DNA from: Streptomyces sp. NBC_01497
GTDB taxonomy: Bacteria; Actinomycetota; Actinomycetes; Streptomycetales; Streptomycetaceae
Assembly: GCF_036250695.1 (NCBI RefSeq)
Contig: NZ_CP109427.1
Location: 5,766,001 to 5,830,000 of the forward strand
Direction: 5' to 3'
Length of the DNA stretch: 64,000 bases
Positions within the stretch are counted from its first letter, which is position 1. Every line of letters begins with the position of its first letter. Made by a program: the position numbers and the translations under genes. A model generated the notes under the pieces. The model was given only the letters and a program-made list of their open reading frames with translations. It searched no databases and was not told where the DNA came from. This document shows positions 56,402 through 63,509 of the stretch, in pieces.

Positions 56402-56570
56402 GCGAACGTCGTAGCGGGGCGGACGAGGAACATGCCCGGGACCGGCGCAGGCGTCACCCGGACGGCCTCATCAGTCGTATCGCACGGCACGGCACGGCAC
56501 GGCACGGGCGTCGGCGGGAGCGCCGGCGCCGGCATCGCCTCCGATCCGGCCGGGGCACGCGCCCGCGCCG

Positions 56571-56606
56571 GTGCCCCGGGTCCGTCGGCGGACGGACCCG
56601 GGGCAC
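56571..56606 (-). terminator. Distal terminator of the methylisoborneol operon
   Basis: GTGCCCCGGGTCCGTC at 56571-56586 pairs perfectly over 16 bp with 56591-56606 around a 4-nt loop, just after the proximal hairpin. Confidence 0.8.
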
Positions 56607-56607
56607 C

Positions 56608-56638
56608 GGCGGACCGCGTCGCTCAGACGCGGTCCGCC
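56608..56638 (-). terminator. Proximal terminator overlapping the methyltransferase stop codon
   Basis: GGCGGACCGCGTC at 56608-56620 pairs perfectly over 13 bp with 56626-56638. The 5-nt loop contains the stop codon of the methyltransferase gene, so the upper arm is coding. Confidence 0.7.
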
Positions 56639-57501
56639 GCGATCAGGAGGTACTGGAAGGAGCCGTCCTTGTACGAGTTGATGAAGGCGTCCTCGATGCC
56701 GGTGACCAGGGACGATGTGGCGCGCAACTCCCAGTAGGGCAGGGTCGCCGCGGTCAGGTCGACGATGGCCTGCGGCACGAGGCGGTGGTCGGCCATGGCC
56801 TTCAGGTACTCCCGGCGGGAGTGGATGTTGCACTCGAAGTGCGCGTTGATCTGGGAGACCCACTTCGAGGGCTGCCCGTAACGCGGGTTCCAGCAGCCCG
56901 TGATGGTCACGTAGCGCCCGCCGACGGACAGCACGCGGGAGTGCTCGGCGAACAGGTCGTCCAGGTCGACGTACATGCTGGACTCGTTGTTCCACGAGCC
57001 CGCGGCCTCGCCCGTCGCGAAGGGCGTGTCGAGCATGTTGCACACCCGGGCGCGGACGTGGTCCTCGATGCCGAGTTCCTGGGCACGCCGGTTGGCGAAC
57101 TCGGCCTGTTTGGCGGAGAGGGTGACGCCCTCGGCCTTGCATCCGAACCGCCGGTGCGCCATGACCATCGAACCGCCCCGGCCGCAGCCGGCGTCCACCA
57201 CGGTGTCCTCGCGCCCGGGGGAACCGAGGTGGTCCAGGAGGACTTCGGCCTGCGCGGACTCCAGCCGGTGGAGTTCCGCGATCAGCTTCTTCTCGTACGC
57301 GCTGTCGGAGGGGTCTCCGAGGGCACCGTGGTCGACGTCGCCGATCCCGTAGTGATGGTGGTAGAGCCCGTCGACGTCGCCGAGGCGCAGGTTCACGGGC
57401 CTCGCCTCCTGGTCCCAGTAGCGGGCGATGTCGCCCTGGTACGGGGACGCCGGAGCGGGGATGAATACGGGGGTGGCGGTGGTGAGTTCGGTGCTGGTCA
57501 C
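56623..57501 (-). CDS. Geranyl diphosphate 2-C-methyltransferase
   Basis: The enzyme uses S-adenosylmethionine to methylate geranyl diphosphate at C2, making the substrate for 2-methylisoborneol synthase. The 292-residue class I methyltransferase has motif I TVVDAGCGRGGSMVMAHRRF, the downstream VTLSAKQAEFANRRAQELGI, and NNESSMYVDLDDLFAEHSRV with acidic residues typical of the family. It corresponds to S. coelicolor SCO7701 as I recall it. GTG 57501 lies 15 bp after the cyclase stop, with AAGGAG between, so the two are co-expressed. A terminator hairpin overlaps its end. Confidence 0.95.
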   Translation of the reverse strand: MTSTELTTATPVFIPAPASPYQGDIARYWDQEARPVNLRLGDVDGLYHHHYGIGDVDHGALGDPSDSAYEKKLIAELHRLESAQAEVLLDHLGSPGREDTVVDAGCGRGGSMVMAHRRFGCKAEGVTLSAKQAEFANRRAQELGIEDHVRARVCNMLDTPFATGEAAGSWNNESSMYVDLDDLFAEHSRVLSVGGRYVTITGCWNPRYGQPSKWVSQINAHFECNIHSRREYLKAMADHRLVPQAIVDLTAATLPYWELRATSSLVTGIEDAFINSYKDGSFQYLLIAADRV

Positions 57502-57516
57502 GGTGAAGTGCGCTCC

Positions 57517-58788
57517 TTACCAGAAATCGGGCAGGCTGTATCGGTAGGTGTTGGTCCGGTGCCAGTAGTGGTTGCCGTCGACCCACACGGCCACGCCCCG
57601 AAGGAAACGGAGCACGCTCGGGACGGGGCAGGCGGCCGCCAGGTCGGCTGCTTCGGTTTCGAAGCGGTGCATGAGTTCGTTGTGGACCTCGACGGCCTTC
57701 AGGTAGGCGTCCCGGTCCGAGGCGGCCTCCCGTTCGGCGATCACCACGGGCAGGTTGAGGTGCCGGCCGGGACTGTCGAGTTCCTTGGTGTACGAGTACA
57801 GGTCGTTCACGATCGTGGTGGCGTTGCCGGCGAGCGCGATGACCCGCTGCATGGCGGTCCGGGCGTGCAGGTCGGCAGGCAGTTCGTAGCCACCGACGGT
57901 GTCGGTGATGGTGGGGCAGGGGCGGAAGTTGTTGAACTGGCGCATCGCCAGGTACTCCCACACCTCGGGCACGTGGTCCGTCTCGGCCCAGGCCGCCTCG
58001 GCGAGGTAACCCAGGTGCAGACGCGCCATGTCGTGCCGGTACCGGTCGGCCTGCGAGTCGGTGGCCTGCCGGCCGAAGTACTCCATGGCGGAGCGGTAGG
58101 CGCGCCGGGGCCCGTCCGAGCCGAGTGAACTCGCCCAGTGCGGCTCGTACTCGCCGGTCGTGTACAGCGGGTCGAGGGCGGTGTGTGCCAGCAGGAGCCG
58201 GCTGCCGAGTCCGACGGGTGAGCCGCCGTGGTCCTCGCAGTAGCAGTCGTCGACCGCGTTCTCGGCGACCATCAGCCGCGTGGCGATCATCAGGTGCTCG
58301 ACGGTGGGGGCGTCGGGATGGCAGGCGACCATGTAACGGCCGACGGAGAAGCCGTCGAACTGGTCCTCCCACTCCGGGGGGAACGCCTGGACCTCGTCCA
58401 CCGCCCAGGCCTTGATCCTGCGGCTGACCTCCGCCACCCGCTCCGGGTCGGGCGGCTGGACCGGGTGGTGGTAGAGGCCGGGGATCGCTGTCCCCTCCAC
58501 AGCCGTCTCCTCCACCGGTGTCCCGGGCTCGGGAGGGGCGGGGGGTTGCGGTCGCCGGCCCGGACGCAGACCCGCGGTGCCCAGACCGCTCGGGCCGCAC
58601 AGGATCCGCTCCAGCGCGGTGCTCGCTCCCCCGACGACCGCGGTGTCCCGCGGTGCGTGCCCGGCGACCGTCTCGTCCGGCGGTCCGGTGCCGGGTGCGG
58701 GTGCGGGAGCGGGGACGCGGGCCCCGAAAAGGGGCGGCGCGGCGGCGGGCAGGCTCGGCTGCAGAGAGGAAGGCCCGGGATCGGGCAT
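57517..58788 (-). CDS. 2-Methylisoborneol synthase (terpene cyclase)
   Basis: The enzyme cyclises 2-methylgeranyl diphosphate to 2-methylisoborneol, an earthy odorant. The 423-residue protein has a disordered Pro/Ala-rich N-terminus (1-104) followed by a class I terpene cyclase fold. The Asp-rich motif VDDCYCEDHGG is at about residues 179-189, and the NSE motif NDLYSYTKE at about 328-336; both bind the Mg-diphosphate. The end YRYSLPDFW is typical of this group. The N-terminus contains ALERILCGPSGLGTAGL (about 58-74), a conserved-looking segment in otherwise variable sequence. It sits between the shell protein and methyltransferase genes. ATG 58788 has AAGGAG upstream. Confidence 0.95.
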   Translation of the reverse strand: MPDPGPSSLQPSLPAAAPPLFGARVPAPAPAPGTGPPDETVAGHAPRDTAVVGGASTALERILCGPSGLGTAGLRPGRRPQPPAPPEPGTPVEETAVEGTAIPGLYHHPVQPPDPERVAEVSRRIKAWAVDEVQAFPPEWEDQFDGFSVGRYMVACHPDAPTVEHLMIATRLMVAENAVDDCYCEDHGGSPVGLGSRLLLAHTALDPLYTTGEYEPHWASSLGSDGPRRAYRSAMEYFGRQATDSQADRYRHDMARLHLGYLAEAAWAETDHVPEVWEYLAMRQFNNFRPCPTITDTVGGYELPADLHARTAMQRVIALAGNATTIVNDLYSYTKELDSPGRHLNLPVVIAEREAASDRDAYLKAVEVHNELMHRFETEAADLAAACPVPSVLRFLRGVAVWVDGNHYWHRTNTYRYSLPDFW

Positions 58789-58920
58789 CCGTGACTCCTT
58801 GGTGAGGTGGGTGGGCTGCCCGGGGGGCCGGGCATCGCGTGCCAGGCCGGGGACCTGGACCGGTGGCCGGCCCGCGTCGGCGGGCGGCCCGCCGGCCGTG
58901 TCGCCGAACGAGCGGGCCCG

Positions 58921-60333
58921 CTAGTCGCGTCCGCGGGCGATCTGCACGTCCTCCAGTACGCCGAGTGCGTCGGGCAGCAGGATGGCGGCGGAGTAATAGG
59001 TCGTGACCAGGTACGAGATGATGGCCTGCTCGCTCATGCCCATGAAGCGCACCGACAGGCCCGGCTCGTACTCGTCCGGCAGGCCGGTCTGGCGCAGGCC
59101 GATGACGCCCTGGTTCTCCTCGCCGGTCCGCATGGCGAGGATCGAGCTGGTGTTCTCCTTGGTGATGGGGATCTTGTTGCAGGGCAGGATCGGGACGCCG
59201 CGCCAGGCCGGGACCTGCTGGCCGCCGAGGTCGACGTGGTCCGGGTGCAGGCCGTAGGCGTTGAACCCGCGCCCGATCGCCGCGATCGTCCGGGGATGCG
59301 CCAGGAAGACCTTGGTGCCGCGGCGGCGGCAGAGCAGTTCGTCGAGGTCGTCCGGGGTGGGCGGGCCGGAATGGGTCTGGATCCGCTGCTTGAAGTCGGC
59401 GTTGTGCAGCAGCCCGAATTCCGGGTTGTTGACGAGCTCGTATTCTTGGCGTTCACGCAACGCCTCGATGGTGAGCCTGAGTTGCTCCTCGGTCTGGTTC
59501 ATCGGACCGTTGTAGAGATCCGCGACCCTGCTGTGGACGCGCAGAACGGTCTGCGCGACCGAGAGTTCGTACTCACGCGGGTGGAGTTCGTAGTCGACGA
59601 AGGAGCCCGGCACCAGGGCTTCGCCGGTGTGGCCGGCGGACATCGGGATCTCGGCTTCGCCGTGCCGGGTCTGCGGCCGGTCGGAGAGCGAGCCGAACCA
59701 TTCGAGGTGTGCCTGGAGGCCCGGTGCCGCCGCGCATACGGCGGCGAAGTCGGCGCGGGACAGGGTGAGCAGGGTGCCGGCGGTCTGGGCGGTGGCGGTG
59801 CAGTCCCACCTCGCGTCGCCGTCCAGGAGGGCGCTCTCACCGAAGCACCCGCCGTCGGCGAGGGTGGTGACGCGGACCTCGTCGCCGTACTTGCCGACGG
59901 CGCTCTGGACGATTCGGCCGTGGGCGATCAGGTGGATCCGGTCGGCGGGGGTGCCGCGCTCGACGAGTACCTCGCCGGCGCCGAAGTCCCGCTGGACGCA
60001 GCGGTCGGCGAGCGCGGTCAGCACCTCGACGTCGTCGAAGCCGCGCAGCAGGGCCAGTTCGCCGAGCTCGCGGGGGATCACCCGGACCTCGGAGCCGTTC
60101 TGGAGGAACTCGACGCGCCCGTCGCCGACGGTGTAGCTCAGCCGGCGGTTCACCCGGTAGGCGCCGCCCTTGGTCTCGACCCAGGGGAGCGTCCGCAGCA
60201 GCCACCGGGAGGTGATCTCCTGCATCTGCGGCGCGGACTTGGTCGTGGTGGCCAGGTTGCGGGCGGCCGCGGTACCCAGGCTGGACTGGCGGGGCGGCGC
60301 CGGCTGCGCTTCCGGACTGGTCTCAACGGTCAT
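58921..60333 (-). CDS. eshA: Family 2B encapsulin-type shell protein with cyclic-nucleotide-binding domain (EshA-like)
   Basis: The 470-residue protein has an N-terminal arm (1-90), a cyclic-nucleotide-binding-like domain (about 92-212), and a C-terminal part matching the HK97-type fold of Family 2 encapsulins (about 230-470, [20 protein letters not shown] and [20 protein letters not shown]). In the binding domain [13 protein letters not shown] forms the phosphate cassette, but the usual arginine is missing (WDCTA follows). EshA of S. griseus, first known from ppGpp and hyphal-growth work, is the family name-giver. Placement before the cyclase and methyltransferase genes suggests a shell that packages the cyclase. 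ATG 60333 ([10 protein letters not shown]) is the start. It is the first gene of the operon. Confidence 0.9.
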
Positions 60334-60643
60334 CGGGGCGAGTTCTCCTTCGCGGCGGAGGTGATCGGCGCGGGCGCGCCGACCGGTGGAAGAGGAAAAG
60401 AGGGGAATCGCCGGCAATCCGTCCGGAACACTGGGAACGGTAATGGCGCCCGGACCCAACTCGCGCGGAACCGCTGCTGAGTTACCTCGATACGGCGATC
60501 TCGGCCGGCATCAGGTTTATCGCGAGGGGCGTTGGTAATCGCGAGTGGGCGGTGCGTTCACGCCGCCTTTTCCCCTGCACGGCACCGTGCGGCACCCGTC
60601 GCACGGCGGATGCGGGCACGCGAGACGCCGTGCGGGCACGCGC
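60334..60643. other. Upstream region of the eshA operon
   Basis: AAGGAG lies 11 nt before the eshA start on the minus strand. A TACCGT box on the minus strand near 60435 could be a -10, without a clear -35. Direct repeats at 60517-60545 are listed separately. No gene is supported. Confidence 0.5.
60517..60545. promoter_or_regulatory. Pair of ATCGCGAG direct repeats upstream of eshA
   Basis: TTATCGCGAG (ending 60526) and TAATCGCGAG (ending 60545) are 19 bp apart, close to two helical turns. They lie about 190 bp upstream of eshA and may bind a tandem activator or repressor. Confidence 0.4.
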
Positions 60644-60677
60644 GACGCCCGGGCCCCTGTGCGCGGGCCCGGGCGTC
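60644..60677 (-). terminator. Distal terminator of the GH59 gene
   Basis: GACGCCCGGGCCC at 60644-60656 pairs perfectly over 13 bp with 60665-60677 around an 8-nt loop. Confidence 0.75.
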
Positions 60678-60688
60678 ACATGACGGGT

Positions 60689-60721
60689 GCGGCACCTGAC
60701 CCGCTGAGGGGCAGGTGCCGC
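60689..60721 (-). terminator. Proximal terminator of the GH59 gene
   Basis: GCGGCACCTG at 60689-60698 pairs with 60712-60721, with inner CCC/GGG pairing, 8 bp after the stop codon of the glycosidase gene. Confidence 0.75.
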
Positions 60722-60728
60722 GCGGTTC

Positions 60729-63509
60729 TCAGCCGGAGCAGGTGAGAGTGGGCGTCGCCCAGTCCCCGTGGTCGTACGCGTTGCCGTCACCGGCGTCGCC
60801 CACGACGAGGTCGAGGCTCTGCACACCGTCGAGATCGGCGCTCAGCTGCTGGGCCGGGTCCCCGCCCTTGATGGTCTTCGTGGCCGCCAGCGTCTTGCCG
60901 TCGCCGAGCACGCTGAAGGTCATGGAGCCCGAGTTCCCGGCGTCGTCGTCATTGCCGACCGTGGTGGTGAACTTCGAGCAGTTGCCGCCCAGGTAGACGG
61001 TGACATCGCTGACCGAGTTGGTTCCGAGGCCCTTGGCGTAGACCTTGCCGTCGATGGTGAGCGGCGTGCCGTCGCCGGCGTTGGTGCCGCCGACGGACTG
61101 GTCGTGCTCGACGGGACCCCAGCCGTTGGTGGACGACACGAAGTCGAGGTCGCTGACGTCGGTGGTCCCGGTCGGCGGGGGCGGGTTGGTGACCGCCACC
61201 TGGGTGTCGCCCCGCAGCCACTGCGCCACGCCGCCCTGGGCGAAGGTCGCCGTCGCGCTGATCGTCGCCGTGGACGCCTTGTCCGTGGGCGCCGTCAACT
61301 GCCAGGTGGCGACGGCACTGTGGCCGGGCTTCACCTCGCCGAACACCTGGGGCTGCGCGTCGAAGGTGAACCCGGGAGCCGTGAGGCTGAGGTTGACGCC
61401 CTGCGCCGCCTTCGCGTGCGACGGCACCGTGACGGTGGTGGACAGCGTCAGGGACTTGCCGCGCTGGACGCTCGTCGCCGACGGGGTCACCGCCAGCGAG
61501 GCGGCCGGGGTGGTGGCGGCCGTCTTCTTGAAGGAGAGGTTGTCGAACTGGTCGGTGTCGTACGACGTGAGGCCGAGCCCGCCCTGCCCCGCGGTGTAGC
61601 TGCTGTCGTGGACCGTTCCGATGTCCTTGCCGTCGACGGACGCGGTGATCGCCGAGCCGCTGAAGGACAGGCCCAGCCGGTGCCAGGTGCCGGTGCCGAG
61701 TGCGGTGGTCGCGGAACGGGTCAGCACCGTGCGCGTGCCGTTCGCGTCGCTCTTGAAGAGGGTCCAGGCGCCGGTGTCGCTGATCTGGAAGAAGTAGCCC
61801 TGCTGGTGGGACTGCGGGCGGTTCTGGGTGCCCGCGCGTCCGATCAGCTCGACCGTGCCCGGCTTGGCCAGTTCGACGTCGGACTGGAGCGAGTAGTTCG
61901 TCCAGGTGGGGTCGCCGACGAGGGTGAACGCGTCGCTGTCGTCCTGCCATTCGATCGGCTTGGTGGCCGCCATCTGCTGCAGGCACATGCCGTGGCGTCC
62001 GGCGGCGCACTTCTGGACCTCGAAGGAGCCCTGCATGTCGGAGACGTACTTCGCCTCCGTGCCGGCGGCGTCGTGGTCGAAGTCGTCCGTGTAGGGAAGG
62101 GCCAGCGCGTGCGCGGCGGGAGGCGTCGCGGTGCCCTTGCCCTGGCCGGTCGTCGTGGTGAGCGTGTAGACGTAGCCGGGCTTCATCGTCAGGGAGTACG
62201 CGCCGTCGCTCGGGGTGATGTCCTGGGTGTGGATGAAGTCCGTCGCGGGGTTCGGGTTGTTCACGTCGGTGGCCCACACGTGGACCGTGCCGGTGGACAG
62301 CCCGCCCGACACGGTGAGGTTCGCGGTCTGCGCCTCGGTGGCCGAGGTCGTCTCCAGGACCGTGGAGTAGTCCTTGCCGCCCGGGGACTTCAGCGTGATG
62401 TAACTGCCGTTGGTCTCCGAGCCGCCGAGGTAGCCGGAGGCGGAGTCGACGAACTTCCAGCCGGGCTGCGCGAACTGGGTGACCTGCGCGGTCGCCCAGG
62501 TGTTCTCGCCGATGGAGTAGTTGCCCGACCAGGGGGATCCGGCCGTCGAGAGGCCCACGGTGGAGTACGGGAGATTGGGGTAGATCGCGGCGAGCAGCGG
62601 CCAGTTGAAGTAACTGGTCATCTTGGCGTCGACGTAGCCGCGTGTGATGGAGCGGATCAGGGCGGGTGCGCCGGTGTTCATGTCCTGCGAGCCGTTCTCG
62701 GACGCCCACAGCGGTTTGCCGTTGTTCTTGGCGGTGTCGGTGCTGGAGCAGGTGTCGGCGGGGCCGCCGTCACCCTGGCAGGGGTAGTGGGCGCCGATGA
62801 TCGACACCGCGTCGTTGAACGCCGGGTCCTTGGCCATGTCGTCAGCGACGTCCCAGCCGCTGTCGTCGGCCACGAGCTGCACGCCGGAGTACCCGGCGGC
62901 GTCGAGGGCGGTGCGCAACTGGACGTACCAGTCGGCGTCGTGACCGCGCTCGTTCCAGCCGCCGAGGTAGCTGATGTCCAGGCCGTGCTGCTTGGCGCAA
63001 CCCAGCCAGGAGATCAGGTAGTTGATGGTGTCGGTGGACCAGAACCCGCCGTTGATCCAGCCGGGCGCCGCCCAGGCCAGCCCGTACAGGCCGATGTCCG
63101 GGTTGCGCTTCTTGGCCTGCTCGGCGAGCCAGAACTCGTAACCGGCATCACAGTTGATCTTGCCCTTGGTGTGCTCGATCGACGGCTCCGAGCCGTCGGT
63201 GGAGTTGGCGTCGCCGCCGATCTCCAGCTTCAGCAACTGGAGATCGGCCCCGTAACCGGGCTTGAAGAGGTAGTCGAGGATCTGCTTCTGCTGGGCGGCC
63301 GGATAGTCGGTCAGCAGGCGGGAGTTGCCGCCGCCGCCGCTGATCGCGCCGATGCCGTCGAAGGTGCGGCCGCTCTTGCTGCCGTCGACGCTGATCGACG
63401 TGGCGGGTGCCGCGTGGGCCGGCGTCGCGCCCGACGCCAGCAAGGCGGCCAGCAGGGCCAGCACCCAGAGGGGGATGAGTCTGCGCACATGAGTCAACAC
63501 GCGGGGCAT
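60729..63509 (-). CDS. Secreted GH59 galactocerebrosidase-like glycosidase with NPCBM module
   Basis: The 926-residue secreted enzyme has a signal peptide (PLWVLALLAALLASGATPAH, cleavage near AHAA), a GH59 catalytic barrel, a beta-sandwich region and a C-terminal NPCBM carbohydrate-binding module (about 785-925, TNGWGPVEHDQSVGG and VTVYLGGNCSKFTTTVGNDD). The acid/base Glu is probably E187 in YLGGWNERGHD and the nucleophile E271 in KPLWASENGSQDM, matching the GALC pattern. A lectin-like segment near residues 485-660 (FEVQ, GYFFQISDTGAWTLFKSD) resembles the GALC lectin domain. It probably cleaves beta-galactosides outside the cell; natural substrate unknown. Two hairpins follow, and a partial IclR-type gene lies upstream. 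Confidence 0.88.
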   Translation of the reverse strand: MPRVLTHVRRLIPLWVLALLAALLASGATPAHAAPATSISVDGSKSGRTFDGIGAISGGGGNSRLLTDYPAAQQKQILDYLFKPGYGADLQLLKLEIGGDANSTDGSEPSIEHTKGKINCDAGYEFWLAEQAKKRNPDIGLYGLAWAAPGWINGGFWSTDTINYLISWLGCAKQHGLDISYLGGWNERGHDADWYVQLRTALDAAGYSGVQLVADDSGWDVADDMAKDPAFNDAVSIIGAHYPCQGDGGPADTCSSTDTAKNNGKPLWASENGSQDMNTGAPALIRSITRGYVDAKMTSYFNWPLLAAIYPNLPYSTVGLSTAGSPWSGNYSIGENTWATAQVTQFAQPGWKFVDSASGYLGGSETNGSYITLKSPGGKDYSTVLETTSATEAQTANLTVSGGLSTGTVHVWATDVNNPNPATDFIHTQDITPSDGAYSLTMKPGYVYTLTTTTGQGKGTATPPAAHALALPYTDDFDHDAAGTEAKYVSDMQGSFEVQKCAAGRHGMCLQQMAATKPIEWQDDSDAFTLVGDPTWTNYSLQSDVELAKPGTVELIGRAGTQNRPQSHQQGYFFQISDTGAWTLFKSDANGTRTVLTRSATTALGTGTWHRLGLSFSGSAITASVDGKDIGTVHDSSYTAGQGGLGLTSYDTDQFDNLSFKKTAATTPAASLAVTPSATSVQRGKSLTLSTTVTVPSHAKAAQGVNLSLTAPGFTFDAQPQVFGEVKPGHSAVATWQLTAPTDKASTATISATATFAQGGVAQWLRGDTQVAVTNPPPPTGTTDVSDLDFVSSTNGWGPVEHDQSVGGTNAGDGTPLTIDGKVYAKGLGTNSVSDVTVYLGGNCSKFTTTVGNDDDAGNSGSMTFSVLGDGKTLAATKTIKGGDPAQQLSADLDGVQSLDLVVGDAGDGNAYDHGDWATPTLTCSG

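Follow-up and report, generated by a model that had tools for sequence, protein, structure and literature searches.

A probable 2-methylisoborneol encapsulin operon in Streptomyces sp. NBC_01497 and the resemblance of its putative cargo tag to the shell N-terminal arm

A shell protein gene that stands directly upstream of the genes for an odour compound raises the question of whether the pathway is housed in a protein compartment and, if so, how the enzyme inside is recognised. Such a gene set lies on the minus strand of a 64,000-nucleotide stretch of Streptomyces sp. NBC_01497 (the window, G000:C1:5766001-5830000, of a 9.08-Mb genome in two contigs) in the order eshA, encoding an encapsulin-type shell protein, then the gene for 2-methylisoborneol (2-MIB) synthase, a terpene cyclase, and that for geranyl diphosphate 2-C-methyltransferase, with gaps of 132 bp between shell and cyclase and 15 bp between cyclase and methyltransferase. 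The three genes very probably form a 2-MIB encapsulin operon, with a capsid-like shell into which the cyclase would be loaded through its N-terminal region and a methyltransferase that would stay outside. Comparison with related loci makes two questions testable, namely by what means Family 2B encapsulins recognise their cargo and whether a shell and its cargo have to share a locus. The features of the three genes are as follows.

58921..60333, minus strand: Family 2B encapsulin shell protein (EshA), 470 aa from an ATG at 60333 (NF041163, 745 bits; Pfam SrpI-like, 449 bits, and cNMP_binding, 61 bits; PDB 9bhu, 837 bits)
60226..60288, minus strand: segment of the shell N-terminal arm, residues 16-36, with the LGTAAAR core at 60259-60279
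59731..59991, minus strand: cyclic-nucleotide-binding-fold insert of the shell, residues 115-201 (Pfam PF00027, 60.6 bits)
58933..59682, minus strand: HK97-fold (SrpI-like) shell domain, residues 218-467 (Pfam PF19307, 448.7 bits)
57517..58788, minus strand: 2-MIB synthase, 423 aa from an ATG at 58788 (NF041167, 488 bits; PDB 3v1v/3v1x, 661/658 bits)
58495..58788, minus strand: variable N-terminal region of the cyclase, residues 1-98, its alignment mostly gapped and variable except at the tag
58576..58596, minus strand: putative cargo tag GPSGLGT, cyclase residues 65-71, conserved in relatives (consensus GPTGLGT in PMC8346489)
58231..58251, minus strand: Asp-rich motif DDCYCED of the cyclase, residues 180-186
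57781..57807, minus strand: NSE motif NDLYSYTKE of the cyclase, residues 328-336
56623..57501, minus strand: geranyl diphosphate 2-C-methyltransferase, 292 aa from a GTG at 57501 (NF041943, 469 bits; PDB 4f84, 551 bits)

An earlier note on this DNA had given the gene order, strand and spacing together with intact Asp-rich and NSE motifs, and all of these hold by coordinates and residue positions. Each of the three starts is preceded by AAGGAG, TTA codons are absent from the three genes and GC3 (the GC content of third codon positions) is 0.90-0.94 across them. Measured against the curated NCBIfam cut-offs (400 bits for NF041163, NF041167 and NF041943, 380 bits for the Family 2A model), the shell exceeds that of the Family 2B model NF041163 with 745 bits and stays below that of the Family 2A model with 338 bits, while the cyclase (488 bits on NF041167) and the methyltransferase (469 bits on NF041943) both exceed theirs. 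The shell has both an HK97-type domain and an insert with the cyclic nucleotide (cNMP)-binding fold, and its N-terminus aligns without gaps from residue 1 to the shell of Streptomyces griseus, the extended N-terminal arm (N-arm) being present. The GPTGLGT-type motif of the cyclase, GPSGLGT, lies inside an unannotated N-terminal region. Among solved structures the cyclase matched 2-MIB synthase (3v1v/3v1x), the methyltransferase its namesake enzyme (4f84) and the shell 9bhu; predicted structures were poor, with a mean predicted local distance difference test score of 45.6 for the cyclase and 41.6 for the shell, and were left unused.

In S. griseus NCTC13033 the shell (L118:8274-9686) is identical over all 470 residues to PDB 9bhu and is encoded directly upstream of a cyclase and a methyltransferase, in the same gene order as in the window. 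Since the window shell shares 375/466 aligned residues with it (80% identity), as well as the N-arm core, the solved structure belongs to the shell of an orthologous operon. The window differs from the S. griseus system (PDB 9bhu, 9bhv, 9bi0) in strain, in the 20% divergence of the shell and in the variable N-terminus of the cyclase, whose tag reads GPHGLGT in S. griseus and GPSGLGT here, and three tested flanking genes of the window are absent from the S. griseus locus. A preprint that probably describes the S. griseus shell structure is said to have the cyclase loaded through its N-terminal region. The window operon is a further ortholog of a known odour compartment, of which both shell and cyclase cargo were already known.

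The three functions are also found together in the eshA-mibA-mibB operon of model Streptomyces, which a review describes as a single operon under direct BldM control (PMC8549240). Family 2B shells are reported in PMC12407261 to be T=1 particles of ~28 nm with terpene cyclase cargo and large two-fold pores. PMC8346489 counts terpene cyclases as the putative cargo of 904 Family 2B operons, finds C-methyltransferases usual alongside 2-MIB synthase-like cyclases and names GPTGLGT and GPTGLGTSAAR as consensus forms of possible targeting sequences; within the literature searched, the string GPTGLGT turned up in PMC8346489 alone.

By analogy with these systems the shell protein would assemble into a capsid-like compartment, its assembly and its size of ~28 nm being those of Family 2B shells in the literature. 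The variable N-terminal region of the cyclase would direct its entry, with the GPSGLGT tag as the likeliest signal, the methyltransferase would make 2-methyl-geranyl diphosphate outside the shell, and substrate and volatile product would pass through the shell pores. The proposal in the earlier note that the cyclase is the likely cargo gains support from the solved S. griseus ortholog and from PMC8346489, which lists cyclases of this class among the putative cargo of Family 2B shells. Its placing of the methyltransferase outside is consistent with the occurrence of a tag-like motif in 0/79 methyltransferase open reading frames (ORFs) of related loci, and stays presumptive.

Two further Family 2B arrangements bear on the comparison. 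The window genome has a second Family 2B shell (L007), 65% identical to the window shell and with the same N-arm core, which adjoins a polyprenyl synthetase and so differs from the window operon in cargo class, and which lies more than 3 Mb away. In the two-component Family 2B encapsulin of S. lydicus (PMC12407261) the fold is as in the window shell and one arm reads SLDTAAARKLATTTKT, but there are two shell proteins per operon, for which that paper determined no native cargo, where the window operon has one shell gene; PDB 9bix and 9bje are probably these two shell proteins, judged by the diagnostic motifs quoted there. A two-component arrangement, defined as two shell genes within 10 kb, was not found in the window genome, whose two over-cut-off shells stand at the distance just given. 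Among Family 2 cargo the geosmin-synthase-like class (NF041168) is, like the window enzyme, a terpene cyclase, with GPTGLGTSAAR-like tags. Geosmin synthase differs from 2-MIB synthase in being a two-domain enzyme and, within the genus, in being encoded mostly away from a shell (4/59 within 10 kb).

The regularity with which a shell accompanies the cyclase was assessed in 150 sampled congeneric genomes, where the cyclase family was over cut-off in 81 and a Family 2B shell in 147. The window genome falls in one genus with G086, which matches L048 (Streptomyces violens) in its shell coordinates and is therefore the genome of that locus. The 94 over-cut-off cyclase loci comprised 65 of at least 468 bits, termed 2-MIB synthases proper, and 29 of lower score. 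A Family 2B shell match lay within 5 kb at 52/65 of the higher-scoring loci (two of these being partial shell matches and one another arrangement) and was lacking nearby at 13/65, several of them at contig ends; at the lower-scoring loci 26/29 had a match nearby and 3/29 had none. Related loci were also compared with their flanks, using the best-scoring 80 of 432 relatives in named genomes, a set that leans to close kin. An upstream shell ORF, scoring at least 822 bits on a model built in this analysis, was present at 61 of these loci, absent in more than 9 kb at 13, decayed at two (L054 and L056) and cut off by the contig end at four. When the 80 cyclases and that of the window were placed on a tree, the shell-less label required 8 changes, 3 of them forced by well-supported branches, with the bootstrap unsettled.

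These loci supply the points that weigh against a compartment encoded and filled in cis. The cyclase gene persists without a cis shell at the 13 shell-less and two decayed loci, and all 15 keep the tag as GPxGxGT (13 as GLGT and 2 as GPGT), compared with 60/61 shell-bearing loci by the same expression, such that the tag may serve something besides the cis shell. Among 120 close cyclase homologs, 112 carry the tag as GPxGLG[TS] and the remaining 8 vary at the L position. Pairwise identity within the tag window averaged 0.772 without a shell and 0.767 with one, against 0.13-0.18 for the 20-residue flanks, and synonymous codons vary at the invariant glycines of the tag. Because the tag is as alike at shell-less as at shell-bearing loci while the flanks diverge and the synonymous codons vary, it is constrained even where no shell is encoded in cis.

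Shell-gene remnants stand just upstream of the 2-MIB synthase gene at L054, L056 and L098, the last being one of the 13 shell-less loci with a remnant of 28 residues, and at all three the cyclase and methyltransferase frames are open. At L084:1783-3933 (Streptomyces sp. ms191; G041:C124 by coordinates) shell residues 1-315 and the cyclase are read as one frame, as would follow from a deletion that joined shell and cargo, an assembly error on this 7.6-kb contig being also possible. A shell match at G040:C1:782452-783273, covering model positions 177-450 only and lying directly upstream of a 2-MIB synthase-type gene, is possibly a decaying shell.

Family 2B shell genes were found in all 17 genomes queried, these being the 15 with shell-less or decayed loci, where they lie elsewhere, that of L084 and that of S. 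griseus. In the 15, the shells elsewhere were at most 69.6% identical to the best-scoring cis-type shell in 13 genomes, with 72.6% in G547 and 77.6% in G548, one shell fragment (G550:C29) lying outside this comparison. A displaced copy of the lost shell is unlikely in the 13 genomes, where none exceeds 70% identity to the cis type, and possible in G548. By coordinates, two Family 2B shells stand side by side in 12/15 of these genomes (those of L048, L054, L056, L057, L063-L066, L072, L087, L098 and L123), while in the random sample such pairs were found in 2/11 genomes without a cis shell, several of which end at contig ends, and in 5/50 with one. The replacement of a lost shell by tandem, two-component shells was accordingly kept as a lead only, the samples disagreeing in strength and relatedness not being removed.

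A tag that outlives its shell either works with another shell, in which case likeness to the shell arm may be the mechanism, or serves the enzyme itself, and the sequence data are indecisive between the two. The former would make the tag a docking peptide that mimics the shell N-arm and acts in trans on shells encoded elsewhere, using the site of a neighbouring N-arm, a reading that is possible although on balance improbable. It starts from the resemblance of the cyclase tag to LGTAAAR, the near-invariant core of the shell N-arm. The loci examined contain 143 unique shells, of which 114 have the arm anchor. In four of the 114 the locus ends before the motif, and L[GSAT]T[ASE]AAR is present in 94 of the 110 that remain visible, the other 16 being one position off (e.g. 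LGTPAAR, LDTAAAR, LGIAAAR, LGTAGAR); 29/143 shells lack the anchor, many being cut by the locus end, and 4 of these 29 show the motif. Residues 16-38 include 20 positions without variation across an alignment of 15 close shells, an unusual degree of conservation for a segment that has been described as disordered.

When scored against the window arm, the tags of 2-MIB synthases (60 of the 80 loci) gave a mean of 23.0 compared with 14.8 (standard deviation 3.3) for their own shuffles, and those of geosmin synthases (n=35) a mean of 27.4 compared with 17.0 (standard deviation 3.8), 2 of the 35 geosmin windows having been set on a wrong first match. Control segments from core and linker scored like shuffles (14.6 vs 13.1 and 16.5 vs 16.8). 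Both tag types thus beat their shuffles and the two controls do not, although the median p per sequence, 0.025-0.032 across the two tags, is modest and, the sequences being homologs, the p-values are not independent. Likeness to the N-arm is closest in motif 1, a QSSLPAAAAR-like element N-terminal in the cyclase (28.8 vs 17.7 for shuffles in 60 of the 120 homologs). As a shell-dependent signal motif 1 was rejected, with 51/61 shell-bearing vs 10/15 shell-less or decayed loci carrying it (Fisher p 0.16) and only 3 independent pairs, not significant, on starred branches of the tree; start codons in this comparison were picked by rule and some are wrong (e.g. L087, L119).

As a DNA pattern GP[ST]G[LF]GT[AS], with R and C also admitted at the third place, the tag gave 22 matches in 41 genomes compared with 31 for the backward control, and this lack of enrichment both rules out raw abundance as a signal and counts against mimicry. 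Only the location of the matches is telling: 2-MIB synthase-like genes and geosmin synthases account for 8 each, a short frame whose tail resembles a cyclase for 1 and other places for 5. LGT[AS]AAR, with F admitted for L, gave 5 matches in the window genome against 3 in the control, two being the shell N-arms and three lying in unrelated frames. A perfect GPTGLGTSAAR stands at G040:C1:1712134-1712156 (L217), close to where a 102-aa frame ends whose tail resembles a terpene cyclase and which is perhaps a broken or frameshifted further cyclase.

The geosmin synthases offer a second view of tags apart from shells. Of 61 genomes, 58 gave between them 59 genes of full or almost full length, a split gene in G010 being excluded and G008 and G050 having none; the 55 that stand alone, beyond 10 kb of any Family 2B shell, are all in genomes with such a shell. 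The motif occurs at the C-terminus and between the domains. A C-terminal tag was present in 35/59, as GxGTxxx[RQ] in 28 and as FGM or LGM[AS]AAR in 7, forms found in 0.16% and in none of shuffled tails, respectively. It was carried by 33/55 stand-alone enzymes (26 with GxGTxxx[RQ] and 7 with the looser FGM/LGM[AS]AAR) and by 2/4 shell-adjacent ones, with GPGTAAAR at this place in the geosmin synthase of the window genome. In a phylum sample of 396 genomes a strong geosmin synthase match was found in 15, of which 3 lie outside the genus, and by match coordinates all 3 out-of-genus genes are 98-169 bp from a Family 2B shell. Because these adjoin a shell, standing alone may be a derived condition in Streptomyces, one in which most of the enzymes have kept the tag.

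Mimicry acting in trans would fit the tagged stand-alone geosmin synthases and their shell-adjacent counterparts outside the genus, as it would the survival of the tag at all 15 shell-less or decayed loci at the identity of shell-bearing ones and the Family 2B shells in all 17 genomes queried. Against it, the Family 2A N-terminus faces outward according to PMC8346489, which would put a mimic on the wrong side, and 22/55 stand-alone and 2/4 shell-adjacent geosmin synthases lack the C-terminal tag; Family 2B shells are moreover near-universal in the genus (147/150), where co-loss cannot show. The general form of the idea, which is slightly more doubtful still, is that terpene cyclases enter Family 2B shells by mimicry of the N-arm core LGT[AS]AAR and, since these shells share the N-arm, could be loaded in trans, geosmin synthase and the shell-less 2-MIB synthases using other shells. 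If an arm-mimic tag does work in trans, one short peptide could load Family 2B shells, and geosmin in most Streptomyces could be made in a compartment that has escaped notice through the separation of its genes. Cargo mimicry of an encapsulin N-arm had no match in the literature searched, which was thin on subscription papers and preprints, and may be in print elsewhere.

It is unlikely that the tag instead stabilises or regulates the cyclase and is no shell signal, with the rest of the N-terminal region associating with the shell. Such a role would account for a tag that is kept, and equally conserved, without a cis shell. In shell-bearing L047, L053, L055, L061 and L077, however, only ~4-11 residues precede the tag, so that little else is left for association with the shell, and the motif recurs elsewhere in the geosmin synthases and shares its core with the shell N-arm. 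That EshA is mainly a cyclic-nucleotide-responsive regulator sharing an operon with odour genes by chance, as its cNMP-binding-fold domain and deposited relatives with names like 'Crp/Fnr family transcriptional regulator' might suggest, is highly improbable given the HK97 shell domain at 449 bits, the solved S. griseus ortholog and the report in PMC12407261 that Family 2B inserts do not bind cyclic nucleotides.

With the locus read as a 2-MIB encapsulin operon, its setting in the chromosome was also compared. The earlier note had set the genes down as a unit in an accessory region, and this is partly borne out. The flanking genes tested, encoding a GH59-type enzyme, a 178-aa ORF and a glycosyltransferase, were matched (0/3) nowhere in the 80 related loci at E <= 1e-20, and the chromosome position varies: the locus stands 5.82 Mb into its 8.55-Mb contig in the window genome, close to a contig end in G052 (8.10/8.67 Mb) and G013 (0.32/9.17 Mb) and about midway in G047 (4.55/8.03 Mb). 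Absent flanks and shifting position fit an accessory unit, but do not thereby show a mode of movement.

Two hairpins lie at the 3' end of the operon.

56566..56611, no strand assigned: perfect 21-bp hairpin 3' of the methyltransferase gene, a probable transcript end
56607..56639, no strand assigned: second hairpin, with 14-bp arms, spanning the methyltransferase stop codon and overlapping the first

The arms of the first (56566-56586/56591-56611, 21 nt, loop of 4) and of the second (56607-56620/56626-56639, 14 nt) are each 100% complementary, and the region 56540-56625 folds at -70.4 kcal/mol compared with a shuffled mean of -50.8 (z -5.5). The two strong closing hairpins of the earlier note are therefore both real, but they share 5 nt, so that both cannot form fully, and they have no U-run downstream in the sequence; a simple terminator scan did not list them. 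A sigma-70 scan found no promoter. Another pair of strong hairpins, at 60644-60677 and 60689-60721, separates the GH59-type gene from the shell gene, beside the end of the former, and probably closes the transcript that comes from upstream. Immediately upstream of the three genes, window positions 60729-63509 encode a 926-aa galactocerebrosidase-like protein with GH59 domains and an NPCBM domain.

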